From: Gracilibacillus orientalis
Lineage (GTDB): Bacteria > Bacillota > Bacilli > Bacillales > Amphibacillaceae
DNA: 64,000 nucleotides
Assembly: GCF_900114645.1 (NCBI RefSeq)
Contig: NZ_FOTR01000001.1
Coordinates: forward strand, 682,001 to 746,000
Direction of reading: 5' to 3'
Part shown: positions 1-12,447 of the stretch, piece by piece
Layout: each line of letters opens with the position of its first letter
How positions within the stretch are numbered: the stretch's first letter is position 1
Position numbers and translations under genes: made by a program
The notes under the pieces: model-generated
Database searches by the model: none
What the model saw: only the letters and a program-made list of their open reading frames with translations
Told to the model about the DNA's origin: nothing

Positions 1-308
1 ATCAAAGCAAGCCAAATGTTTTGATGCTCCATGATTGCTGCAGCTGTAGCACCTGATATGGCTAATACTGAACCAACTGAAATATCTATACCTTCTTTTG
101 CAATAACTAACGTCATTCCAATAGAAATTATCACAAGTGGGATCGAACGATTTAAAATATCAATAAGACTGCCAAATAAGTGATTGTTTTTTATTTCAAT
201 TTCAAAAAAGCCAGGATCTATAAACAGATTTAAAACAAGAAACAAAGCTAATGCTGTTAAAGGCCAAAATATTTTTTGCCTAGTAAATTTAAGAAGGTAT
301 TGTTTCAT
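1..308 (-). CDS. Sugar ABC transporter permease, RbsC/YtfT type (partial, N-terminal part)
   Basis: Only the first ~102 residues are in the window; the gene runs off the left edge. Reading from the ATG at 308 gives a short basic N-terminus (MKQYLLKFTRQK), a hydrophobic segment, and then the GMTLVIAKEGIDISVGSV motif characteristic of RbsC/XylH/YtfT permeases of CUT2 sugar importers. It would form the membrane channel for the sugar delivered by the binding protein at 7009-8046 and powered by the ATPase at 289-1821. The start overlaps the end of the ATPase gene by 20 bp, so translation is probably coupled. Substrate is inferred from the YtfQ-like binding protein (a furanose sugar), not from this fragment. 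Confidence 0.9.
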   Translation of the reverse strand, partial: MKQYLLKFTRQKIFWPLTALALFLVLNLFIDPGFFEIEIKNNHLFGSLIDILNRSIPLVIISIGMTLVIAKEGIDISVGSVLAISGATAAAIMEHQNIWLAL

Positions 309-1821
309 CTATTTCATCTCCTTTTGCTATCATGTCCATAATCTTAGACTCTGTCATATCCTCTCCTTGTAGTTCTCCAATTTTTTGACGGTCCCGTAAG
401 ACAATGACTCGATCACAACAAGCTACTGTTTCTTCAAGTTCAGCAGATATGAATAAAATGGTAATTCCCTCTTTTGCTAAATCAAAAATTAATTGCCTAA
501 TTTCTTGCTTCGATCCTACATCAATACCTCTAGTTGGTTCATCTAAGATAAGTAAAGTTGGATTTGTAGCTAACCATCTAGCAAGAATGACCTTTTGTTG
601 ATTTCCACCACTAAGATTATCAATGCTTTGTTCTATACTCGGTGTTTTTATTCTTAATAATTTGATATATTTATTGGCTATCCTTTCTTGTTCTTTCATA
701 GGAATGTATTTTAATAGGCCTTTTTTGGTTTGTAGTCCTAGAATAATATTTTCACGAATGGTTAAATCATTAATTATTCCTTCTACTTTGCGATCTTCCG
801 GGCAGAAACTCACCCCTCTTTCAATCGATGATTTTGGGTTTAAAGATCCAATCTTTTCATTGTTTAAATAAAGAACCCCTTGATCTGGCTTATCAATCCC
901 AAAAATTACTTTAGCCAATTCAGTTCTACCTGAACCTAACAGCCCAGCTAACCCTAATACTTCTCCCTTACGCATCTCTATATTTAATGGATTAATAGAG
1001 CCTTTTCTGGCTAGATTAGTTCCACTTAATAACAACTCAGATGATTTTAAATTTTTAAATTGTTTTTCTTTGTGATTAGAATTTTCATCCCATTCCCGTC
1101 CAATCATATTCGATACTAAATCTTTTCTAGGGAGTTGATTCGTTACGTAATCTCCGATATATTGGCCATTTCTTAAAACAGTAATTCGATCAGAAATTTC
1201 GTAGACTTGCTCCAAAAAATGACTAACAAATATAATCCCCATGCCTTCCTCTTTCAATGATTTCATTACCTTAAATAATTGTTTTACTTCATTTTTGTCC
1301 AGACTGGAAGTGGGTTCATCCAGAATAAGAACACCACTAGACATATCTACAGCTCTTGCTATGGCTATCATTTGCTGAATGGCAGTAGAATACGAAGAAA
1401 GAACTTTAGATACATCAATCTTTATATTTAATCTCGTTAAAAGTAATTGCTCAGCTCTTTTTTTAATTTCCTTCCAATTAATTCTTCCATTTTTTTTTGG
1501 TTCTCTACCAATAAAAATATTCTCTGCTACAGAGAGATTTTCGCATAAATTAACTTCCTGAAACACCGCACTAATTCCCTTGTTTTGAGCACTTTGCGGA
1601 GAATCAAGATCTATTTGTTCTTCTTTGAAAAATATTGAACCTTCATCCATTTTGTGAACTCCTGTGAACACCTTAATTAGAGTTGATTTACCAGCACCAT
1701 TTTCACCCATTATGGAATGAATTTCACCTTGTTTTAAAGTGAAGCTAACGTTTGATAAAGCTTTGACACCTGGAAAAAATTTAGATATTCCTTCAGATCT
1801 TAGCAAATACTCAGAAACCAT
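289..1821 (-). CDS. Sugar ABC transporter ATP-binding protein, RbsA/MglA/YtfR type (two ATPase domains)
   Basis: A fused double ATPase of about 510 residues, usual for CUT2 importers. The first half has Walker A GENGAGKST and Walker B LILDEPTSS. The second half has GLLGSGRTELAK in place of Walker A, signature LSGGNQQK and Walker B LILDEPTRGID. An open frame extends upstream to 1938, but the start chosen is the ATG at 1821 (MVSEYLLRSEG): it has an AGAGGGTG ribosome site just upstream and aligns with family N-termini. The first-domain signature is weak (SSYSTAIQQ), as is common in this family. It follows the tandem binding-protein gene after a terminator-like hairpin (1973-2001), so it may be expressed at a lower level or from a separate promoter. 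Confidence 0.93.
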   Translation of the reverse strand: MVSEYLLRSEGISKFFPGVKALSNVSFTLKQGEIHSIMGENGAGKSTLIKVFTGVHKMDEGSIFFKEEQIDLDSPQSAQNKGISAVFQEVNLCENLSVAENIFIGREPKKNGRINWKEIKKRAEQLLLTRLNIKIDVSKVLSSYSTAIQQMIAIARAVDMSSGVLILDEPTSSLDKNEVKQLFKVMKSLKEEGMGIIFVSHFLEQVYEISDRITVLRNGQYIGDYVTNQLPRKDLVSNMIGREWDENSNHKEKQFKNLKSSELLLSGTNLARKGSINPLNIEMRKGEVLGLAGLLGSGRTELAKVIFGIDKPDQGVLYLNNEKIGSLNPKSSIERGVSFCPEDRKVEGIINDLTIRENIILGLQTKKGLLKYIPMKEQERIANKYIKLLRIKTPSIEQSIDNLSGGNQQKVILARWLATNPTLLILDEPTRGIDVGSKQEIRQLIFDLAKEGITILFISAELEETVACCDRVIVLRDRQKIGELQGEDMTESKIMDMIAKGDEIDETIPS

Positions 1822-1972
1822 ATAGAACACCCTCTTAATTCTGTGTTTTAACCTGTTGTATATAGTAAGAACAGGCTTATTTAAAGTATAATTTTTTGTT
1901 GAAATTTTGTATTTAAAAATAAAAGTCTTTTTTTGCACATTTCGGCTTTATAATTAAAAAAGCTATTAAAAT

Positions 1973-2001
1973 ATCCCCGCTTCACTTTGTGAAACGGGGA
2001 T
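1973..2001 (-). terminator. Hairpin between the tandem binding-protein gene and the ATPase gene
   Basis: Inverted repeat with stem ATCCCCG plus TTCAC, a 3-nt loop and one internal mismatch. On the minus strand it is followed by a T-rich stretch (TATTTTAATAGC, then TTTTTT). It could act as a partial terminator inside the operon, separating sensor genes from transporter genes. Confidence 0.7.
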
Positions 2002-2040: not shown

Positions 2041-3912
2041 CTAATAGTTTCTTTTTTTTATTTCTTTCTTTGCTTCTTCTTGTGTAAAGGTTTCCTCAGA
2101 TGTAATAATTTTCATCGGTATTTCCGTACCGTTTTTTAATTCTTTAGCAGCTTGCATAATCTGTGGTCCTAACAACGGGTTACATTCCACCGTAAAATTT
2201 AATTTACCAGCACTTAGTGCTTTAAAAGCTTTATTTGTAGCATCTATTGAGATAATTTTTATATCAAATCCAGGTTGTAAACCGTATTCCTCAATTGCTT
2301 CAATTGCCCCAATTGCCATGTCATCATTGTGCGAATACACTATATCTATTTCACTGCCAAACTGTTGCAACGCCTTTTCCATCATTTCTTTACCTTTTCC
2401 CAATGTAAAATCGCCTGATAAAGAATCTATTATATGAAGATTGGGGTGATGTTCTGATACTTCTTTAAATCCTTGTTTTCTATCAGTTGCTGGTGCTGAA
2501 CTCTTTGTGCCTTCTAATTCTATAATATTAACTGTTTCCGTATTAGATTCCTTATGATCTACTACCCATTGAGCAGCTCTTCTTCCTTCTTCAACAAAAT
2601 CTGATCCAATAAAAGATGTCCAAAGTGAATCGTCTTGAACCTTTATTTCCCTATCACACAATATAACAGGGATTCCTGCATCTTTTGCTTCCTGTAATAC
2701 TTCATCCCATCCATTCTCTACCATAGGGGAAAATGCAATGACATCTACACCTTGCTTAATAAAATCCCTGATTATTGCTATTTGTTTTTCTTGATTATTA
2801 TTTGCATTTATTAATTGAAGATCTACATTTTCTTGCTCAGCTGCTTTTATAATAGATTCCGTATTCGCTGATCTCCATGCACTTTCATTACCTACTTGTG
2901 CAAATCCAAGGGTGACTTTCTCATCATTTTCTATATGGCTAGTTAAGTCATTTCTGTTATGATAAAAGTCCTCCACATTTTGAGAAGATACTTCATGATT
3001 TCTTAATATTATTTTTTTAGGAATTTCTGTATCTTCTTCTAGAATACGAATAGCATAGTGTATCGCTTGTTTACCTCCTGTAGGTGTTATAAATGTTGTA
3101 TCTATTTTCTTTTGTTTTACAAGTTGCAGTCCTCCATTTGGTTTATCTACGCCATCACTTCCAATTATTTTAATATGATCTATATCTAGGGAATGAAGTG
3201 CTTTATACACACCTAAAGCCATCGCATCATTGTGGGCATATATGAGATCAGGTTGATCATTACTCTTTTTTAATAATGCTTTTAATTCATCCTCTGCTTT
3301 ATCACGTTGCCAGTTAGCAACAAGTGTGTTTATAATTTTTATGTTTTTCATTTGATTTATATTTTCTCTAAAACCACGACTTCTCTCTTCTGCTTGTACT
3401 GCACTCGTTAAGCCTTGTACTTCAATTACGTTACCGCCTTGATTTCCCAACAAATTTGTAGTAGCTTCAGCAGCCATTTCACCTATTAAAAAATGATCAG
3501 TTCCAATATAAAGTGTATAATTGTAACCTTCTACACCTCTTCCTAGTACAATAACTGGAATTTCATTATATGCCTTTGATATAACGGGTGTCATTGCTAT
3601 TGAATCTTCAACAGACACAATTAATAAATCAATATCATATCCCTTTAACGTTTTAATATCATCAATTTGCTTTTGCGTATTTTGAGCTGCGTCAGTGTAA
3701 ATCACTCTTATATTATGATATTTTGATGCTTCCTCTTGTATTTCTTCATTCATTGAAATTTGCCAAGGTTCTAGGAGGTTAGGTTGTGAAACGCCAATAA
3801 CATAGTCGACTTCCGTTTCTGTATGAGAATTTGATTGAAACAATATAACAAATACTAAGCATATCATAAGTGCTACAAACAACATGATAGTAGTGACGAT
3901 TCTTTTATTCAT
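2041..3912 (-). CDS. Membrane-anchored protein with two tandem sugar-binding (periplasmic-binding-protein) domains, probable sensor subunit
   Basis: 623 residues. Residues 1-27 form one hydrophobic segment with no convincing lipobox (the only Cys is preceded by Ile), so it looks like a membrane anchor. Residues ~37-310 form one Peripla_BP_4 domain (starts DYVIGVSQPNLLEPWQ; contains YAHNDAMALG). Residues ~335-610 form a second, closely resembling the transporter's own binding protein at 7009-8046: both share WTSFIGSDF/YTSFIGSDF-type, SHNDDMAIGAI/AHNDDMALGAI and VECNPLLGPQ blocks. Ordinary binding proteins have one such domain (~300-350 aa). The start overlaps the response-regulator stop by 8 bp, placing it in the kinase/regulator operon. 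Inference: it presents sugar to the kinase rather than feeding the transporter, as described for XylFII with LytS/YesN and for AraP with AraS/AraR. Confidence 0.9.
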   Translation of the reverse strand: MNKRIVTTIMLFVALMICLVFVILFQSNSHTETEVDYVIGVSQPNLLEPWQISMNEEIQEEASKYHNIRVIYTDAAQNTQKQIDDIKTLKGYDIDLLIVSVEDSIAMTPVISKAYNEIPVIVLGRGVEGYNYTLYIGTDHFLIGEMAAEATTNLLGNQGGNVIEVQGLTSAVQAEERSRGFRENINQMKNIKIINTLVANWQRDKAEDELKALLKKSNDQPDLIYAHNDAMALGVYKALHSLDIDHIKIIGSDGVDKPNGGLQLVKQKKIDTTFITPTGGKQAIHYAIRILEEDTEIPKKIILRNHEVSSQNVEDFYHNRNDLTSHIENDEKVTLGFAQVGNESAWRSANTESIIKAAEQENVDLQLINANNNQEKQIAIIRDFIKQGVDVIAFSPMVENGWDEVLQEAKDAGIPVILCDREIKVQDDSLWTSFIGSDFVEEGRRAAQWVVDHKESNTETVNIIELEGTKSSAPATDRKQGFKEVSEHHPNLHIIDSLSGDFTLGKGKEMMEKALQQFGSEIDIVYSHNDDMAIGAIEAIEEYGLQPGFDIKIISIDATNKAFKALSAGKLNFTVECNPLLGPQIMQAAKELKNGTEIPMKIITSEETFTQEEAKKEIKKRNY

Positions 3913-5104
3913 ATAGTTTTTCCCCTGTACGATATACAGTTGGTGAAATCCCGACTACTTTTTTAAAGGCATTGCAAAAATAATGTTGTGTACTATAACC
4001 AACCATTTCAGCTACTTCATATATCTTCAGATAAGGATCCTTCATTAAGATCAATGCTTTATTAATTCGCACATTTTTAAGATATTGAATAAATGAGACA
4101 CCTAGTTCATTTTTTATTTGTTTACTTAGGTACGTAGGATTCACTTGCACATAACTTGCAACCTGTTGTAATGAAATAGATGGACTATAATAATGTTGAT
4201 CAATATAATTTTTAGCCAATGCAACAATAGGCGTCATTTTATTCGCTGATTTTAAATCACTAACTACTTTTTTATATTCATTAGGAAATTCCAAAGATGA
4301 AGTTAATAAGGAATCCCTACAAGTGACAACTTTTCCTAGAAAACGCTCTAACTCTAGTACTATTTTTTGATTGATATCGAATAAAAATTCTGTGTCTATC
4401 TGTGGTAACAATAAAACAATGTGACCAGATTGATCCTCAAACATTTCTTTTGATTGATATCCACTTAAAAGATCACTAATAATATTTTTGATTGAAAAAC
4501 TTAACAGAACATCACTCCAATTTTGTTCCATACTTCCTATGTTAATTTCTTTTATAACCTTAAATACCAATAATCCAGTGTTTTTCGTTAAACTGACTCC
4601 AAGTAGCTTTGCATGTTTTTTCATTTCGTCTTCTTGATAGTGTCCAAGACTCCAACTCAATAGAAATTTTTCCTTAAGAAGTTGTTTATTGCCTTCCAAT
4701 TGTTTTTCACGAAGCCTATTCCTAGACCTTCTCGTCAAAATATCAACAGCATTCTCAATCGACTGTTCTAGCTCCGGTTTTTTTACGGGTTTTAATATAT
4801 AGTCTATTGTTCCCATCTTTATTGCTTTTTGAGCATAAATAAATTCATTATAACCTGAAATAACAATAAAAACGGCATCAGGTAATATCGACCGTAATTT
4901 TTCCATTAATTCTAATCCATTTAAAAACGGCATGTTGATATCGATAAATAGAATATCCGGCCTCAATTCTATAGCCTTGTTTAACGCTTCTTCTCCATCC
5001 TCTGCTTCACCTATCACATTGATTGAATAACTTTCCCAATTTAATGATTTTTTTAACCCTCTTCTAATAATACTTTCATCTTCAGCAATAAATAATTTCC
5101 ACAT
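3905..5104 (-). CDS. Response regulator, YesN type (receiver + AraC-family DNA-binding domain)
   Basis: 399 residues. The N-terminal receiver domain has acidic residues E8/D9, phospho-acceptor D55 (LFIDINMP) and conserved Lys in LKPVKKPE. The middle part is a weakly conserved linker. The C-terminal ~100 residues carry two AraC-type helix-turn-helix motifs (ISLQQVASYVQVNPTYLSK and KIYEVAEMVGY), ending GISPTVYR. It is the partner of the kinase at 5128-6876 (23 bp apart) and overlaps the tandem binding-protein gene. Its likely targets are the promoter of the binding protein at 7009-8046 and the transporter genes, inferred from position only. Confidence 0.95.
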   Translation of the reverse strand: MWKLFIAEDESIIRRGLKKSLNWESYSINVIGEAEDGEEALNKAIELRPDILFIDINMPFLNGLELMEKLRSILPDAVFIVISGYNEFIYAQKAIKMGTIDYILKPVKKPELEQSIENAVDILTRRSRNRLREKQLEGNKQLLKEKFLLSWSLGHYQEDEMKKHAKLLGVSLTKNTGLLVFKVIKEINIGSMEQNWSDVLLSFSIKNIISDLLSGYQSKEMFEDQSGHIVLLLPQIDTEFLFDINQKIVLELERFLGKVVTCRDSLLTSSLEFPNEYKKVVSDLKSANKMTPIVALAKNYIDQHYYSPSISLQQVASYVQVNPTYLSKQIKNELGVSFIQYLKNVRINKALILMKDPYLKIYEVAEMVGYSTQHYFCNAFKKVVGISPTVYRTGEKLYE

Positions 5105-5127: not shown

Positions 5128-6876
5128 TTAGAATGGCTTAAGAGGAAGGATTGCATTAATTGTTGTACCTTTTTTAAATTCACTATACACTTCCAGCCCA
5201 TAATCTGTTCCATAAGATAGTTTGATTCTTGCATTAACATTGAACAAACCATACCCCTTAGACACATTAGAATCAATTTTCTTTAGATAATTGTTAATTT
5301 CTCGTAATTTATCACTTTTCACTCCCATTCCAGTATCACGAACTGTAAATAGAAGCTTATCATCTTGAGTATCAATATTAATTATAATCTTTCCTTTACC
5401 TCTCTTATTTCTTATACCATGATATATTGCATTCTCTACTAAGGGTTGTAATATCAGTTTTAAGACTTGATAATCTTTTACACGCTCGTTCATATTTATC
5501 TCATACTCTAACTTTGATTCGTATCGAGTCATTTGTATAATGAGATAGCTTTTTACATGTTCAACTTCTTCTTCTACTGTGATGAATTCCTTTCCTTTAT
5601 TCAAACCAATTCGGAAAAGGGTTGTTAACGCATTCACTAATTCAGTTATCTTTGTAGCATGATATTCATCAGCCATCCATTGAATAGTATCTAAAGTATT
5701 ATATAGAAAATGAGGTTTGATTTGCGCTTGCAAGATCTCTAACTCTGCTTCTCGTTTACTTTTTTGTTCTTTGTATACTAATTCGATTAAACGTTCAATT
5801 TCATCGATCATTTTATTATAACTCTTACCTAATTGTCCTATTTCATCTCTGTATTTGGAATGAAATCGTAAATCAAATCTTCCTTCTTCTACATTACCCA
5901 TTAGTGTTTTCAATTTGTTAACTGGTTTTGTTATCATACTTGCGAAAAATAATGAAAATACAGATCCGACCAACAAAGTAATTAAAGCGATTACAAAAGT
6001 GAGTTTCTGAACATCCGAAACCACTTTTGTCGTTTCATCTAGAGAAAAAACACCAGCTACTTTCCAACCGATATCAGAAATAGTGTTGTAAATAATTTGA
6101 TAATTATTTCCTTTAATAGTTTGTTCAACAGGTGAAGAGCTTTCATTTTGTAGCCAACTTGGATGTATTCGATAAACGATATCATTTACTGGTGCATACA
6201 CAACTTTACCGTTCTCGTCCGTTATAAACACAAAACCACTTTTTCCTAATTTAATTGATTCAATAATATTTTTGATAAAATCTAATTTTAGGTCTATCAA
6301 AATAACACCCATTACTTCATCTGTATTAGAGTTTTTCACAGCTTTTACAAGTGTGAGTACATTATTTACTTGATAATTTGAATTGTTTTTTATATTTCTT
6401 CCAATTGGATTACTAATTAAATGCATTTTTTCAGGTGACTTGATTGTCTCTACATACCACGGCTCCGTTGTGAGTGGATCTCTTGAAATACGTGATATCT
6501 CGTTACTAATAAATCTATCATGCTTATTTAGGATTAAAATTCCCGCAATCTCCGGATGTCTATCTTTGTAAACTTGCATTTTGTTTTTTATTGACTGTTC
6601 ATCAGAACTATTACTCTCTTGTTCCAACATGAATTCTTTCACTAATTCCTCTTGAGAGAGATAATACATGATATTTTCGTTTTCTTCTATCAGTGTTTTT
6701 ATATTGCTCCATACTTGATTAATCATTTGATCAGTATGCATATTCGCTTCTTCTTCTAGCGAATCTTTGTAGATATTTCCGCCAAAAAAACTTAATGTAG
6801 ACACACATAAAATGATAATAATAAAAAAATAAAATAAGAGCTTAAATCGAATACTTTTGTTATTAAAATATAACAC
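5128..6876 (-). CDS. Sensor histidine kinase, YesM/LytS type
   Basis: 582 residues. An N-terminal membrane helix (~12-32), a large extracellular Cache-like sensor region (~33-280), a second membrane helix (~285-310) and a HAMP segment (SMITKPVNKLKTLM...) precede the His_kinase domain with QIKPHFLYNTLDTIQ, whose His is the phosphorylation site. The HATPase_c domain has the N-box QPLVENAIYHGI and G-box DTGMGV. The family signals to AraC-type regulators such as the adjacent one. A hairpin (6966-6999) separates it from the upstream binding-protein gene, so it may be expressed by read-through from that gene. The attached double binding protein suggests sugar recognition is at least partly done by that partner. 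Confidence 0.95.
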   Translation of the reverse strand: MLYFNNKSIRFKLLFYFFIIIILCVSTLSFFGGNIYKDSLEEEANMHTDQMINQVWSNIKTLIEENENIMYYLSQEELVKEFMLEQESNSSDEQSIKNKMQVYKDRHPEIAGILILNKHDRFISNEISRISRDPLTTEPWYVETIKSPEKMHLISNPIGRNIKNNSNYQVNNVLTLVKAVKNSNTDEVMGVILIDLKLDFIKNIIESIKLGKSGFVFITDENGKVVYAPVNDIVYRIHPSWLQNESSSPVEQTIKGNNYQIIYNTISDIGWKVAGVFSLDETTKVVSDVQKLTFVIALITLLVGSVFSLFFASMITKPVNKLKTLMGNVEEGRFDLRFHSKYRDEIGQLGKSYNKMIDEIERLIELVYKEQKSKREAELEILQAQIKPHFLYNTLDTIQWMADEYHATKITELVNALTTLFRIGLNKGKEFITVEEEVEHVKSYLIIQMTRYESKLEYEINMNERVKDYQVLKLILQPLVENAIYHGIRNKRGKGKIIINIDTQDDKLLFTVRDTGMGVKSDKLREINNYLKKIDSNVSKGYGLFNVNARIKLSYGTDYGLEVYSEFKKGTTINAILPLKPF

Positions 6877-6965: not shown

Positions 6966-6999
6966 AAAAATCGAGATTGAAAATTCAATCTCGATTTTT
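6966..6999 (-). terminator. Perfect hairpin, terminator/attenuator between binding-protein gene and kinase gene
   Basis: A 10-bp perfect stem (TCGAGATTGA) with a 4-nt loop, flanked by five A on one side and five T on the other, so it can work on either strand. It fits partial termination giving much more binding protein than kinase. Confidence 0.85.
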
Positions 7000-7008
7000 C
7001 ATTTCCAT

Positions 7009-8046
7009 TTAATACTTGCGATCAGGTAAGGCTTCTTCTGCTGCTTCTGCACCTACAAACACCGTTTCTTCTGTTTTAATCCATCGCTCAATTTCTTTTT
7101 CTTCCTTTAAATCCTTTGCTGCTTGTGCAAGCTGTGGTCCCAATAATGGATTACATTCTACAATAATATTTGCTTTTCCTGCAATAACTGCCTCGAATAT
7201 ATCGCTAATTCCATCTACAGATACAATTTTTATATCTTCCCCAGGATTCAAGCCATATTCCTCAATCGCCTGTATCGCCCCTAATGCCATATCATCATTA
7301 TGGGCATAAACTACATCTATATTCTCACCATCAGATTTTAAGAATGCCTCCATAACTTCCTTACCTTTTGACCTTGTAAATTCACCAGTTTGGGATTTAA
7401 TAATATTATACTTATCGTTCTCATTTATAATATTCGCAAATCCTTCCATCCGGTCATTTGCTGCACTAGCACCGACAGTCCCTTGAAGTTCTACAATGTT
7501 CGTTTCTACGTCCTCTCCAACAAGGTTAATTAATTCTTTTGCTGCATTCTCACCTTCAAGAATAAAATCAGATCCTATAAAGCTTGTGTACAATGACTCA
7601 TCTTCTACTTCAATACGACGGTCTAATAAAATTACTGGAATATCTGCATCCTTTGCCTCTGTTAAAACCGTTTCCCATCCAGATTCTACTACAGGAGCTA
7701 AAGCTATAATATCTACCTGTTGAGCAATAAAATTTCTTAGTGCCTTTATCTGATTTTCTTGTTTTTGTTGAGCATCAGAAAATTTCAGTTCAAACTGTGG
7801 ATCATTTTCTAATGTGTCTTTAATAGATTCTGTCTCAGCTGTTCTCCATCCACTCTCTGCACCTATTTGTGAAAAACCAATCACAATAGGACCAGAAGAG
7901 TCTTCATTTGAAGCTTCCTCACTATTGTTGTCTGATTCATTATTTTCATTAGTTGAGTTTGTGTTTTCTGAATTACATGCTGAAAGAATCAATACTAATG
8001 ATAGCACCGTAACCAAGATTACAAATACCTGTTTTACACTTTTCAT
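7009..8046 (-). CDS. Sugar ABC transporter substrate-binding lipoprotein, YtfQ-like (furanose sugars)
   Basis: 345 residues with a lipoprotein signal (LILSAC, Cys24) and an Asn/Glu/Ser-rich linker. It then shows the YtfQ hallmarks: GFSQIGAESGWRTAET, QQKQENQIKALRNFIAQQVD, APVVESGWETVLTEAKDADIPVILLDR and AHNDDMALGAIQAIEEYG. E. coli YtfQ binds galactofuranose, and the related bifidobacterial FruE binds fructose. Given the fructan locus elsewhere in the window, a furanose such as fructofuranose, arabinofuranose or galactofuranose is a reasonable but unproven substrate. It is the first gene of the locus, with a strong AAAGGGGGAG ribosome site. Its sequence is closely similar to the second half of the tandem protein at 2041-3912. 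Confidence 0.93.
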   Translation of the reverse strand: MKSVKQVFVILVTVLSLVLILSACNSENTNSTNENNESDNNSEEASNEDSSGPIVIGFSQIGAESGWRTAETESIKDTLENDPQFELKFSDAQQKQENQIKALRNFIAQQVDIIALAPVVESGWETVLTEAKDADIPVILLDRRIEVEDESLYTSFIGSDFILEGENAAKELINLVGEDVETNIVELQGTVGASAANDRMEGFANIINENDKYNIIKSQTGEFTRSKGKEVMEAFLKSDGENIDVVYAHNDDMALGAIQAIEEYGLNPGEDIKIVSVDGISDIFEAVIAGKANIIVECNPLLGPQLAQAAKDLKEEKEIERWIKTEETVFVGAEAAEEALPDRKY

Positions 8047-8319: not shown

Positions 8320-9570
8320 TTATATAAACAAAAGCGATAACCCCGGTATAAATAGAATAAACAGTGCAGCAATAATCAGTACAATAATGAATGGAAAGGT
8401 TCCTTGAACAACATTAGAAAAGGGTGTTTTACTCACACCTGAAGCAACAAAAAGGTTCAGTCCAAATGGAGGTGTTAGCATCCCAATCGCTAACGTGACG
8501 ATCATAATAATTCCAAAGTGAATCGGATCAATACCAAATTCATATACAATCGGTAAAAACAACGGAACGAAAATTAATACCGCAGCGCTTGTATCCATAA
8601 ACATCCCAACCACTAACAAAATCACAAACACCATAAGCAGGAAAACAACCTTAGTATCTGCATATTCTAAGAAAAAGGCTGCGATTTCTTTCGGAATATT
8701 TTCATAGGTTAAATACCAACTGAACACGTTAGATGTTGCAATCACCAGCATAATCATCGAAGAGGTAATCACAGACTTTCGCGTGACGTTATATATTTTC
8801 TTCCACGTTAGTTCTTTATAGACAAACAAACCGATTAAAAAACTATAAACAATAGCTACAGCAGCCGCTTCTGTCGGAGTAAAAATACCAATATAAATAC
8901 CACCAAGCACAATGATTGGCAACAAAATCCCCCAGAAAGCATGGATAAATGATCGCAACAATTCACCGAAGCTTACCCGTTTTTCTGGCTGATGTCCTTG
9001 CTTTTTGGCAATCACATAACTGACGACAATTAATACAAATCCTATAAAAACCCCTGGCATAATTCCCGCAATAAATAGATCTCCAATTGACACTTCAGCA
9101 GCAGAACCATAAACCAGCAACGTAATACTCGGAGGAATAATTATCCCTAAAGATCCAGCTGCAGTCATTAAACCAACAGAGAATTTTCTTGAATAATTTG
9201 CATCACGCAATGATGGAATCATTATGCCCCCAATAGCTGCTACAGTCGCAGGGCTAGAACCTGACAATGCGGCAAATAACATCGAGGATAAGACTCCAGC
9301 TATTGGTAATCCACCTGTCGTCCACCCAACCAATTTCCGAGCAAAATCGATGATCCTTCTTGATGTTCCTCCAGATAACATTAAATCTCCAGCGAAAATA
9401 AAAAACGGTATTGCCATCAATGTAAAAGAATCAATTCCGGAAAAAAGCGTTCGCGCAAAGACATCAAGTGAAATTCCTTGCTGATACATCGCCACAAAGC
9501 TAGCTATTCCAATGGCAATAGCAATAGGTGCACCGATCAGCAGCAAAACGATAAAAATGAATAAAATCAT
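8320..9570 (-). CDS. TRAP transporter large permease, DctM type
   Basis: 416 residues, almost entirely hydrophobic with about 12 membrane segments, matching the DctM family length (~425). Recognisable family stretches are IPFFIFAGDLMLSGGTSRR, ALSGSSPATVAAIGGIMIP, GSLGIIIPPSI and GMLTPPFGLNLFVASG. It forms the ion-coupled translocation channel of a tripartite sugar-acid/carboxylate importer. It overlaps dctQ by 4 bp and is transcribed after dctP and dctQ. Confidence 0.95.
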   Translation of the reverse strand: MILFIFIVLLLIGAPIAIAIGIASFVAMYQQGISLDVFARTLFSGIDSFTLMAIPFFIFAGDLMLSGGTSRRIIDFARKLVGWTTGGLPIAGVLSSMLFAALSGSSPATVAAIGGIMIPSLRDANYSRKFSVGLMTAAGSLGIIIPPSITLLVYGSAAEVSIGDLFIAGIMPGVFIGFVLIVVSYVIAKKQGHQPEKRVSFGELLRSFIHAFWGILLPIIVLGGIYIGIFTPTEAAAVAIVYSFLIGLFVYKELTWKKIYNVTRKSVITSSMIMLVIATSNVFSWYLTYENIPKEIAAFFLEYADTKVVFLLMVFVILLVVGMFMDTSAAVLIFVPLFLPIVYEFGIDPIHFGIIMIVTLAIGMLTPPFGLNLFVASGVSKTPFSNVVQGTFPFIIVLIIAALFILFIPGLSLLFI

Positions 9571-10079
9571 TTCTCCATGACCTCCTCTGGTTGTCCTTGA
9601 TCATCAGAGTAAGATCGCTTTACATCAACAACTAGCATTTGAACAAAGCGAAACAACATCAATCCTCCACCAACTGGAACCGTTAGATACGGTATCGCCA
9701 TTGGTACACCTAATGCAGGGGTAACATTCCCAAGCTCCACTACACTGGAAACCATTTCAGAGCCTGCCAAAATCATAATCAAGCAAAAAACAATACCTGC
9801 TAAATTAGCAAAAATGGAAAAAAACTTTTTTCCTGCCGATGGAAGAAATGCCACCAACGCATCAACCGTCGCATGCCCTTTTTCCCTGACCGCAATACTG
9901 CTGCCAATCAACACCAACCAAATAACTAAAAAGCGTGCAGTCTCTTCCGACCAAATCAAAGAAAAATTAAATAAATAACGTAAAATAACTTGTACAAAAA
10001 TTAAAATAGAAGCGACTATCATGGAAAACACAGCAAAAGATTCTTCAATATGATTGACGACTTGATTGAACTTCTTCAT
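9567..10079 (-). CDS. TRAP transporter small permease, DctQ type
   Basis: 170 residues with four predicted membrane helices. Typical DctQ features are the WSEETARFLVIWLVLIGSSIAVREKGHATVD block and a short charged C-terminus. It bridges the DctP binding protein and DctM. The stop overlaps the DctM start by 4 bp, indicating translational coupling. Confidence 0.93.
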   Translation of the reverse strand: MKKFNQVVNHIEESFAVFSMIVASILIFVQVILRYLFNFSLIWSEETARFLVIWLVLIGSSIAVREKGHATVDALVAFLPSAGKKFFSIFANLAGIVFCLIMILAGSEMVSSVVELGNVTPALGVPMAIPYLTVPVGGGLMLFRFVQMLVVDVKRSYSDDQGQPEEVMEK

Positions 10080-10211
10080 ACAAAGCCCCCTTTATGGTTA
10101 GGAAAATTTTCCATATAAGTTTTTTTATACTATAAACCATAAAATTATATACATACTTATAGCGTGAAATAAGAGCGATCCCTCGCTCTTATCCACCTCA
10201 ACACTTTCCTT

Positions 10212-11276
10212 CTATTCGATTAACTCGATCATCTTATCCGAATCCTCAAATTTATCATGGAATTCATCAAATACTCCACTTAATGCATCCTTAAAAGCCT
10301 CTTTCTGTTCACTAGTCAATTCATTTATTTCGACGTCAGACTCTTCTAATATTTGCATGTACTCCTCTTCATCACTTTCTGACATATCCCATTGCCATTC
10401 CGTAACTTCCATCGCCACTTCTTCCACCACTTCCTGCAATTCCCCAGGCAGACTGTCATAGAAAGACTGGCTAATGATAAGAGGATACCCCATGTAACCA
10501 TGAGAACTTAACGTTACATAATCTTGCACTTCATAAAATTTTTGACTGATAATGTTTGATAGAGGGTTTTCCTGTCCGTCGACAGTACCTGTCTGTAAGG
10601 AAGTATACAATTCCGAAAAGTCGATCGATACTCCACCCGCATTTAATGTTTTAAATTGCGAAATTAATAATGGACTTTGTGACGCACGCATCTTTAATCC
10701 ATCTAAATCTTCTGGCGTTTCAATCAGTCTTTTCGAGTTGGTAAAATGTTTAAATCCGCCATCCCAGAAACCAATTAGTTTTAAATTTTGTTCCTCTAAT
10801 TTTTCACTAAGATAATCCCCTAAATCTCCATTGACTGCTTCAAAAGCATGCTCACGATCTTCAAAAAGATAAGGCAGATCAAATACTTCAAACTCTTCTA
10901 CAAAAGTTGGCAGTACACCAGTAAACGGAGCATTCATGTGGACTGTACCAGATTGCATTTGCTCCAGAATCTCTCGATCACTGCCAAGTTGAGAGTCCGG
11001 GTAAATTTCTACTGCTATTTGTCCATCTGTTCTCTCTTCAAGTAACTCTCCAAATTTTTCTGCACCCTTCCCTTTTGCAGTAGAAGGGCTCACCACATGC
11101 GCAAATTTCAAAACATATTCTTCACCGTCTTCATTATTAGCTTCCGTTTCCTCATTTGTTTCGTTGTTACCACTCTCTGTATTACCTTCTTCCGTATCTC
11201 CATTAGGCTCTGAAGAACTGCAAGCAGCTAGAGTAAGTAAAATCAATCCCATAACACTCATTAAAAGCCTCTTCAT
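10212..11276 (-). CDS. TRAP transporter solute-binding lipoprotein, DctP type
   Basis: 354 residues from the ATG at 11276 (MKRLLMSVMG). The frame is open to 11306, but the shorter start has a GAGAGGGG ribosome site and begins the lipoprotein signal (TLAAC, Cys19). An acidic Glu/Asn-rich linker follows, then DctP motifs: LGSDREILEQMQSGTVHM, GLKMRASQSPLLISQFKTL with the conserved substrate-binding Arg, and the ELYTSLQTGTVDGQENP signature. DctP proteins usually bind sugar acids or dicarboxylates. The adjacent SMP-30-like enzyme favours an aldonic or uronic acid, an inference from neighbourhood. Confidence 0.95.
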   Translation of the reverse strand: MKRLLMSVMGLILLTLAACSSSEPNGDTEEGNTESGNNETNEETEANNEDGEEYVLKFAHVVSPSTAKGKGAEKFGELLEERTDGQIAVEIYPDSQLGSDREILEQMQSGTVHMNAPFTGVLPTFVEEFEVFDLPYLFEDREHAFEAVNGDLGDYLSEKLEEQNLKLIGFWDGGFKHFTNSKRLIETPEDLDGLKMRASQSPLLISQFKTLNAGGVSIDFSELYTSLQTGTVDGQENPLSNIISQKFYEVQDYVTLSSHGYMGYPLIISQSFYDSLPGELQEVVEEVAMEVTEWQWDMSESDEEEYMQILEESDVEINELTSEQKEAFKDALSGVFDEFHDKFEDSDKMIELIE

Positions 11277-11419
11277 ACCAAAACCCCTCTCTATAAAACT
11301 CTCCACTATTAACTATATGAAGCTCGTCCTGAAAAATAACTAAATAATAAACGAACAACATCTTGAGAGATGATGATAGAAGGATTCAAGACAGTTTGAA
11401 AGTTGAAGAATACAAAAAT

Positions 11420-11559: not shown

Positions 11560-12447
11560 TTATGCGTTGTGATTGTTTTTAAAGCGATTCGCTTCCAACC
11601 CTTTTGCATTCGGTTTAATAAAAAAGAGGCTGCCGGACAATGGAAGTTTTCCCAGTTCTTCCTCTGTCATTCCTTCCCTTGCAGTTGTAATGTATAGTGT
11701 GTCAAAATCCTTACCGCCAAAAGTGCAGGATGTAATGTTTTTGGCTGGCACTTCTACCACAGACAAAACCTCTCCAGTTTCCGGATTCCATCTGCTTACT
11801 TTTCCTGATCCCCACCCTGCGATCCAGAGCATGCCTTCGGTATCAATTGTCATGCCGTCCGGAAAACCATATGTTTCGGTGAATTGGAAAGCAACACGCT
11901 GATTCGTAATAGTTCCAGTTTCCAAATCGTATTCGAATACATAAATATTTCTAGTCGGTGTATCGATAAAATACATTCGTCTATATTTCATATCCCAGGC
12001 CATACCATTGGAGGTTCTCAGTTCAGTTAACTTTGCTTCCACTTCAAGCGCATGATTCATGCAGTACAAAGTGCCTTCTGGCTCATTATCACTTTTTTGC
12101 ATCGTTCCCGCCCAAAATCTTCCTGCAGGGTCCACCTTACCGTCGTTGAATCGATTGTCTGGCCTGTCTAGTTCTGGATCATGTATAGCATTCATTTGTT
12201 TTGTTTCAGTATCATAAAAATAAAAGCCATTCTCCGCCGCCAACACTAATTGTCCATCTTCTGCTACAACAACTGCACCGACCATCTCACCAATCTCAAA
12301 CGTGTCGTTCTGCTCCTTTTGCGGATTGAATCGATGAATTACTTCTCCTGTAATATCGGTCCAGTATAATACCTGATTTCTTTCATCCCAACAAGGCCCT
12401 TCACCAAGCAATGCTTTGATTTCATAAGCTACTTCTGCTTTCACCAT
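11560..12447 (-). CDS. SMP-30/gluconolactonase/LRE family protein (sugar lactone hydrolase)
   Basis: 295 residues, the usual family length. It shows the six-bladed propeller signatures LLGEGPCWDERNQVLYWTDI (metal-binding Glu), DRPDNRFNDGKVDPAGRFWAGTM (Asn/Asp metal ligands), SNGMAWD and GFPDGMTIDTEGMLWIAGWGSGKV (active-site Asp). The family hydrolyses aldonolactones, feeding free sugar acids to catabolism. It is transcribed towards the TRAP operon but separated by hairpins, so it is probably its own unit. The exact sugar is unknown. Confidence 0.92.
   Translation of the reverse strand: MVKAEVAYEIKALLGEGPCWDERNQVLYWTDITGEVIHRFNPQKEQNDTFEIGEMVGAVVVAEDGQLVLAAENGFYFYDTETKQMNAIHDPELDRPDNRFNDGKVDPAGRFWAGTMQKSDNEPEGTLYCMNHALEVEAKLTELRTSNGMAWDMKYRRMYFIDTPTRNIYVFEYDLETGTITNQRVAFQFTETYGFPDGMTIDTEGMLWIAGWGSGKVSRWNPETGEVLSVVEVPAKNITSCTFGGKDFDTLYITTAREGMTEEELGKLPLSGSLFFIKPNAKGLEANRFKNNHNA

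Follow-up and report, generated by a model that had tools for sequence, protein, structure and literature searches.

A putative two-domain binding-protein sensor in a three-component gene set of Gracilibacillus orientalis

We analysed a stretch of 64,000 nucleotides from Gracilibacillus orientalis (contig NZ_FOTR01000001.1, positions 682,001 to 746,000; hereafter the window), the first 8 kb of which encode, on the minus strand and in this order, a transport binding protein, a histidine kinase, a response regulator, a protein with two sugar-binding-protein domains in one chain (the tandem sensor) and a YtfR-like ATPase of the ATP-binding cassette (ABC) type (Table 1). Kinase, regulator and sensor are thus adjacent, as in a three-component gene set, and the first 8 bp of the tandem gene overlap the end of the regulator gene (stop at 3905), an AGGGG lying nine bases ahead of the ATG; both the gene set and the overlap had been claimed in a preliminary description of this DNA. 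Nine terminator-like hairpins were found in the region for 2.4 expected, and because such hairpins lie on either side, before the kinase and after the tandem gene, kinase, regulator and tandem sensor look like a single cassette. A promoter scan was uninformative (33 sites, 32.7 expected). Judging from the point where its family match begins, the YtfR-like ATPase probably starts near 1821. Past the edge of the window come further genes of the operon, for YtfT-like and YjfF-like permeases and then for a GH2-type protein of 1207 amino acids, which matches PA14, GH2, GH43_C2 and FIMAH and in which no Pfam match to a GH2 catalytic barrel was found at expectation values (E) up to 1e-6.

The tandem protein does consist, as first described, of two complete binding-protein domains behind a single membrane anchor. 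Pfam finds Peripla_BP_4 twice (126.6 and 164.2 bits for a cut-off of 35.1; whole protein E 6.8e-83), and an AlphaFold2 model built from 40 sequences shows an N-terminal helix and two complete domains, D1 and D2 (mean predicted local distance difference test score, pLDDT, 90.3; predicted template-modelling score, pTM, 0.84), superseding a poor earlier model from five sequences (pLDDT 74.2, pTM 0.44). D1 and D2 are 26% identical to each other, and among the 50 PDB matches listed no entry spans both (best query template-modelling score, TM, 0.46). Chance or a frame artefact can be ruled out, the same tandem layout recurring in 44 loci. Cleavage of the N-terminus as a lipoprotein, which the preliminary description had set against a sensing role, is not indicated: the pattern used finds no lipobox in the window's tandem protein. 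The same pattern matches in 8 of 43 relatives, and it overlooks several more in which the hydrophobic stretch ends with a cysteine. The membrane tether thus looks conserved while its chemistry does not. The lengths of the linkers between membrane segment and domain were uninformative, the query setting the domain start in transport proteins, and were not used.

Table 1. Features of the tandem sensor locus (window positions; residues are those of the tandem sensor)
Feature	Position	Strand	Basis
YtfR-like ABC ATPase	289..1938	-	Open reading frame, family matches
Terminator-like hairpin of 13 bp, tandem sensor/YtfR gap	1973..2001	-	Hairpin scan
Tandem binding-protein sensor, 623 amino acids, ATG start	2041..3912	-	Open reading frame, Pfam, AlphaFold2
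D2, residues 334-623, YtfQ/GafA-type, putative furanose-binding domain	2044..2913	-	PDB, fold match, site residues
Linker, residues 323-333, pLDDT under 50 at 323-327	2914..2946	-	AlphaFold2 model
D1, residues 35-322, BT1754-like, predicted to face the kinase	2947..3810	-	PDB, fold match, ectodomain co-occurrence
D1 Thr276 (Tyr in 43/45 single-domain relatives, 0/44 tandems)	3085..3087	-	Alignment
D1 Gly124 (Asp in 45/45 single-domain relatives; tandems: Gly 22/44, Asp 22/44)	3541..3543	-	Alignment
D1 Gln51 (Arg in 45/45 single-domain relatives; tandems: Gln 10, His 1, Arg 32 of 43)	3760..3762	-	Alignment
N-terminal membrane helix, residues 3-26, no lipobox by pattern	3835..3906	-	Hydropathy, model, 43 N-termini compared
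YesN-type response regulator (receiver and AraC-type helix-turn-helix)	3905..5104	-	Domain matches
YesM-type histidine kinase, dCache_1 and HAMP	5128..6876	-	Domain matches
Kinase ectodomain stretch (Cache) taken as query	5977..6792	-	Homologous to ectodomain of kinase beside AraP-like gene
Terminator-like hairpin of 15 bp, on both strands, transport protein/kinase gap	6966..6999	-	Hairpin scan
Transport binding protein, YtfQ/GafA-like, lipobox present	7009..8046	-	Domain matches, N-terminus comparison, identity to D2

Relatives were gathered with D1. The best 80 of at least 558 relatives gave 78 loci, so that the counts below are of top D1 matches rather than of all genomes; with three more loci added, the resulting 81 loci yielded 44 tandems, 10 single-D1 sensors, 26 transporter-linked single D1 proteins and 9 without such neighbours. 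Loci L064, L066 and L067, repeats of L075, L080 and L104, are omitted from these counts, in which the near-identical pairs L090/L126, L103/L105 and L110/L111 were left. A single-domain protein was counted as a sensor when a regulator or kinase gene lay immediately upstream, so the position of the single sensors is no result, while tandems were defined by their domains alone. The tandem gene follows the regulator in 39/44 loci and the kinase in 4/44 (at -116 to +18 nucleotides), the 44th lying at a contig end, and the survey for tandems beside kinase and regulator genes that had been proposed as a check thus finds 43 of 44 in that position. Full-length tandems are conserved but rare: counting the own genome each time, they occur in 4 of 61 relatives, in 2 of 397 genomes of the order, in 1 of 398 genomes of the class (E limit 1e-110) and in 2 of 398 genomes of the phylum (E limit 1e-60). 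Their hosts include Bacillaceae, Paenibacillaceae, Clostridiaceae, Lachnospiraceae, Oscillospiraceae, Acutalibacteraceae, Sporomusaceae and two Spirochaetes.

D2 is a relative of the operon's own YtfQ-like transport binding protein, as had been noticed from their shared FIGSDF, HNDDMA.GAI and VECNPLLGPQ blocks, which are present within an alignment of 52% identity (E 5e-103). Both proteins fall short of the equivalog cut-off of NCBIfam NF041827 (510 bits), D2 with 390.7 and the transport protein with 369.7 bits. The closest PDB relative of D2 is MSMEG_1712 (6HBD/6HYH, E 2.1e-102; 55% identity to 6HBD over 293 columns, target TM 0.93), the structures of which were solved with galactofuranose and arabinofuranose. 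We compared nine positions that we take to form the sugar site, chosen from the contacts of ribose-binding protein and from the GafA paper. Transport YtfQ proteins are invariant there (376/376 cells), and the D2 domains of the tandems keep 385/393, all eight exceptions being aromatic for aromatic. The furanose-binding site of YtfQ/GafA proteins is described in the available part of PMC10191376, which also links Phe40 of Shewanella GafA to binding of arabinofuranose only and reports that MSMEG_1712 binds both galactofuranose and arabinofuranose. Phe40 aligns with residue 350 of the tandem protein, which is Asn as in the two-sugar binder MSMEG_1712, and for this reason D2 may take both furanoses; among tandem D2s the residue is Asn in 34, His in 9 and Ser in 1. 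Among the neighbouring genes of relatives, one codes for a galactokinase (L076) and another for a galactose mutarotase (L110), and the other neighbours scanned agree on no sugar.

The identity of D2 to the transport protein raises the question whether the tandem is no sensor at all and instead captures sugar for the ABC importer alongside the transport binding protein, in the manner of the tandem domains of GlnPQ; tandem domains are indeed known in importers, according to the available part of PMC8025302. Against this, a separate YtfQ-type transport protein lies in the fetched stretch of 40/44 tandems, the tandem gene sits directly behind a regulator or kinase gene, and D2 departs from the transport proteins at 14 positions, where at least 88% of transport YtfQ proteins but no more than 30% of D2s have the conserved residue. 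Such losses would be expected of a domain that no longer serves a permease. We consequently reject a transport-only role, and regard the capture-protein reading as very improbable.

D1 differs in type from D2, as the preliminary description had it, but BT1754-like is a better label for it than the RbsB-like given there. Its closest PDB relative is 2X7X, the fructose-sensing domain of BT1754 (E 5e-44, 32% identity, target TM 0.90), which is also its best fold match outside the YtfQ group. At the nine site positions the D1 domains of the tandems keep only 302/394 cells. Arg125, Arg177 and Asp253 are retained in 44/44 each and Trp50 in 43/43, whereas Tyr276 is found in 0/44, Asp124 in 22/44, Arg51 in 32/43, Trp201 in 35/44 and Asn228 in 38/44; these changes represent fewer events than rows, Gly124 being limited to 22 Bacilli rows and the Trp201 losses to one clade of nine. 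In the single-domain relatives of D1, Arg51, Asp124 and Trp201 are present in 45/45 and Tyr276 in 43/45, the two exceptions being Clostridium sensors that lack D2. Trp50 is replaced by Tyr in 6 of the 26 transporter-linked singles and is therefore variable among them. Outright loss of contact residues from both domains, which would have spoken against sensing, is not what is found, the site of D2 being kept and that of D1 kept in part.

Six D1 positions (103, 104, 106, 230, 256 and 276) switch between tandem and single-domain proteins; eight columns satisfied the rule, and 217 and 321 were dropped for showing a single residue among single-domain proteins. Seven further residues (E61, L89, P109, E207, D208, L264 and Y286) are common to tandem and single sensors and are not shared by other single-domain proteins, with cut-offs of 80% in the tandems plus the two Clostridium singles, 74% in eight singles and at most 20% in the others. 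These seven are candidates for the contact with the kinase.

The preliminary description had suggested that two unlike domains could let one kinase weigh two sugars. In such a dual-ligand sensor D1 would have a small ligand of its own, unlike that of D2, and the kinase would integrate both. In favour of this, D1 keeps its charged core (Arg125, Arg177, Asp253) and Trp50, and the changes at positions 51 and 124, common to all ten Bacillaceae tandems, could be a new specificity rather than decay. Yet the changes differ by lineage (Trp201 has become Glu, Ala or Gly in a clade of nine rows, and six rows have Ser or Cys for Asn228), unlike what one conserved new ligand would leave, and the ten neighbour proteins scanned point to no common second sugar. 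With a D1 site that departs at Arg51, Asp124, Trp201 and Tyr276, and a kinase ectodomain that follows D1 (see below), the two-sugar idea is poorly supported and we hold it to be unlikely. The other suggestion made at the time, that one domain reports its occupancy to the other, fits better if D2 reads and D1 couples.

The kinase ectodomain and the two domains keep different company. The ectodomain of the window kinase matches its counterparts with 134-584 bits in the 40/40 tandem loci that have a full kinase and with 141-233 bits in 10/10 single-D1 loci. At four YtfQ operons without D1 that served as controls (L069-L072, one of them in the own genome; L068 was left out, its kinase being cut off), the ectodomain scores 1-22 bits and the kinase cores 185-195 bits. 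A search with the ectodomain alone in 397 genomes of the order returned three hits above 230 bits, namely the two tandem genomes and a single-D1 genome (G199); in a further tandem genome (G796) a 193-bit match lies at a distance of about 2 kb from the tandem. The next-nearest ectodomains reach 118-151 bits in the order and 109-132 bits in a phylum sample of 343, and all 28 such loci that were read have a single binding-protein gene directly upstream (27-39 bits to D1 or D2). As to the transporters, none of the 44 tandem stretches holds a D1-type transport protein, and of the four in which no YtfQ-type one was seen, L102 and L116 stop at a contig end at or soon after the tandem, while the contigs of L125 and L127 measure 12,997 and 3,847 bases. 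A D1-type transport protein lies beside 8/10 single-D1 sensors and a YtfQ-type one beside 2/10. Judged by these matches, the kinase ectodomain goes with D1, whether D2 is present or absent, and D2 goes with the YtfQ-type transporter.

That D1-only relatives share the same kinase ectodomain family in 10/10 loci, and that two Clostridium loci do without D2, would also suit a sensor in which D1 alone reads and signals and D2 is accessory, for instance a local sugar trap or a brake competing for the signalling surface. This reading must contend with the fact that the intact site is that of D2 (385/393 against 302/394) and that the tyrosine of single-domain proteins is absent from all 44 tandem D1s, and it appears rather improbable to us.

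Phylogenetic analysis of D1 separated the 44 tandem D1s and the two Clostridium singles from the 43 other singles (support 98/91). The two D2-less Clostridium sensors (L095 9887-10864 and L098 9887-10870) are nested inside the tandems; their genes stop at the end of D1, and no convincing D2 remnant was found after them. In the D2 tree, from which the cut D2 of L116 was left out, one branch (100/96) splits 43 D2 domains from 42 transport YtfQ proteins. If the tree is rooted among the transport proteins, which is an assumed rooting, D2 would have been gained once, together with the loss of the D1 tyrosine, and later lost twice.

Taken together, these comparisons lead us to favour, as somewhat better than an even bet, a model in which an AraP-like three-component sensor was re-aimed by domain addition, D1 coupling to the kinase and D2 reading a furanose. 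The tandem sensor would be the extracellular input module of a three-component system with the YesM-type Cache kinase and the YesN-type regulator, would remain tethered outside the membrane and would probably control the YtfQ-type furanose importer and the GH2-type glycosidase. D1 would be the ancestral sensor domain resting on the Cache ectodomain of the kinase; D2, derived from a YtfQ-like binding protein, would have joined it, in the simplest case in a single event. D2, with its retained site, would bind a sugar of the galactofuranose or arabinofuranose type that the importer takes up, and its closure around the sugar would be passed through D1 to the kinase, leading to phosphorylation of the regulator and induction of the operon. 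The stronger form of this model, in which D1 lost its former sugar but not its hold on the kinase and reading passed to an attached relative of the importer's binding protein, is more tentative, and we put it somewhat short of even.

Several observations weigh against the domain-addition model. The intact Arg125, Arg177, Asp253 and Trp50 of D1 would be odd in a domain that binds nothing. The two D2-less Clostridium sensors persist beside a YtfQ-type transporter, and therefore D2 cannot be the sole reader there. At a fifth YtfQ operon (L198 in genome G640, the YtfQ-type gene divergent from the kinase), in whose short stretch read no tandem was seen, the ectodomain reaches 60 bits and so is closer than those of the four controls. 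The loci were gathered with D1, so its presence in them reflects selection, and only the ectodomain search tests the reverse. Finally, D2 distances correlate with the kinase core (0.331), which the model does not predict. In favour of the model, once kinase core, regulator and YtfR are removed, the distances of D1 correlate with those of the ectodomain at 0.305 and those of D2 at 0.119 (37 loci); the pairs in these correlations are not independent and were compared without a permutation test.

The nearest known system in its gene set is AraP-AraS-AraR of Geobacillus, where a binding-protein gene likewise lies beside genes for a YesN-type regulator and a kinase of the Cache type. In the own genome an AraP-like gene has a kinase neighbour (L197 on C11) whose ectodomain is matched by that of the window kinase (132 bits, E 4.7e-38), a comparison made with this kinase and not with AraS itself. 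The AraP-like binding protein, of about 347 amino acids, matches PDB 6SW4, 'Arabinose binding protein', with E 6.5e-130, an entry which we take to be AraP. Its locus differs in having one binding domain and the order binding protein-kinase-regulator, compared with two domains and the order kinase-regulator-sensor in the window, and D1 matches the AraP-like protein with 34 bits only. On these grounds the window system is best described as a relative of AraPSR-type sensors with a different, doubled sensor protein. Three-component gene sets with a binding protein thus number at least three in the own genome, namely those of the window, of C11 and of C16. The last (L071) is a second YtfQ-type operon, divergent from a cassette of kinase, regulator and single binding protein, with an unrelated ectodomain (17.5 bits).

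One-domain precedents for such sensors fit the preliminary description, each sensor protein in the sugar three-component systems examined having a single binding domain. The three-component logic of XylFII-LytS-YesN in Clostridium beijerinckii is alike, with one binding domain; the PDB chains 5XSD, 5XSJ and 5XSS (306-316 residues), presumably XylFII, are weak relatives of D1. A sequence search with the window kinase ectodomain returned no LytS chain among 15 hits at E up to 1, and close kinship with LytS was rejected, no evidence for it having been obtained. A review (PMC10384115) covers, in its available part, three-component systems in which sensing and transport fall to separate proteins, CuaD being among the one-domain sensors, and a YesM-YesN pair with two binding proteins is reported at a Parageobacillus arabinose locus in that of PMC13068155. 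In the hybrid two-component system BT1754 of Bacteroides, judging from its PDB title and the available part of PMC3404733, the binding domain is in the kinase chain, in contrast to the separate genes of the window. The BT1754 pocket has Trp-Arg, Asp-Arg and Tyr where D1 of the window has Trp-Gln, Gly-Arg and Thr. The YtfQ/GafA proteins of E. coli, Shewanella and MSMEG_1712 serve transport, while D2 presents a similar site in a gene position typical of sensors. The binding domains of Bordetella BvgS belong to a different family. Two of them stand in tandem with different roles in that one sensor, according to the available part of PMC4352136; they are fused to the kinase, whereas the tandem of the window is encoded apart from it. 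No two-domain sugar sensor of the present kind was found in a literature search that covered titles and the starts of abstracts and had most subscription papers outside its reach.

Some neighbouring genes may be mentioned for themselves. Directly beside two single-D1 sensor loci of Paenibacillus lies a second kinase-regulator pair (L130 10974-14467, L135 11622-14959), and DUF2961 proteins adjoin two other single-D1 sensor loci (L096 5298-6398, L104 14658-16688). DUF2961 presumably corresponds to GH172, a family with furanose-active members. A genome of the same genus carries pieces of a broken YtfQ-like gene with stops (L073 7596-8356), and next to one tandem the reading frame for the transport binding protein is short, at 230 amino acids (L065 3673-4365). 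In the window itself, upstream and on the same strand, positions 8320-11306 look by eye like a TRAP-type transporter made up of a lipoprotein and two membrane proteins, next to a likely sugar lactonase (11560-12447, named by eye from its translation).

The two-domain version is conserved across several Bacillota families and two Spirochaetes, with one-domain and D2-less relatives as natural controls, and it makes testable how a sensor kinase can acquire another ligand while its own interface stays as it was. The signal, moreover, would be a furanose and not a pyranose sugar. If the proposed history is true, sensor kinases would be re-aimed with the kinase left untouched, D1 being an adaptor that turns the closure of another domain into a kinase signal; such a domain could act as a modular adaptor in sugar biosensors.

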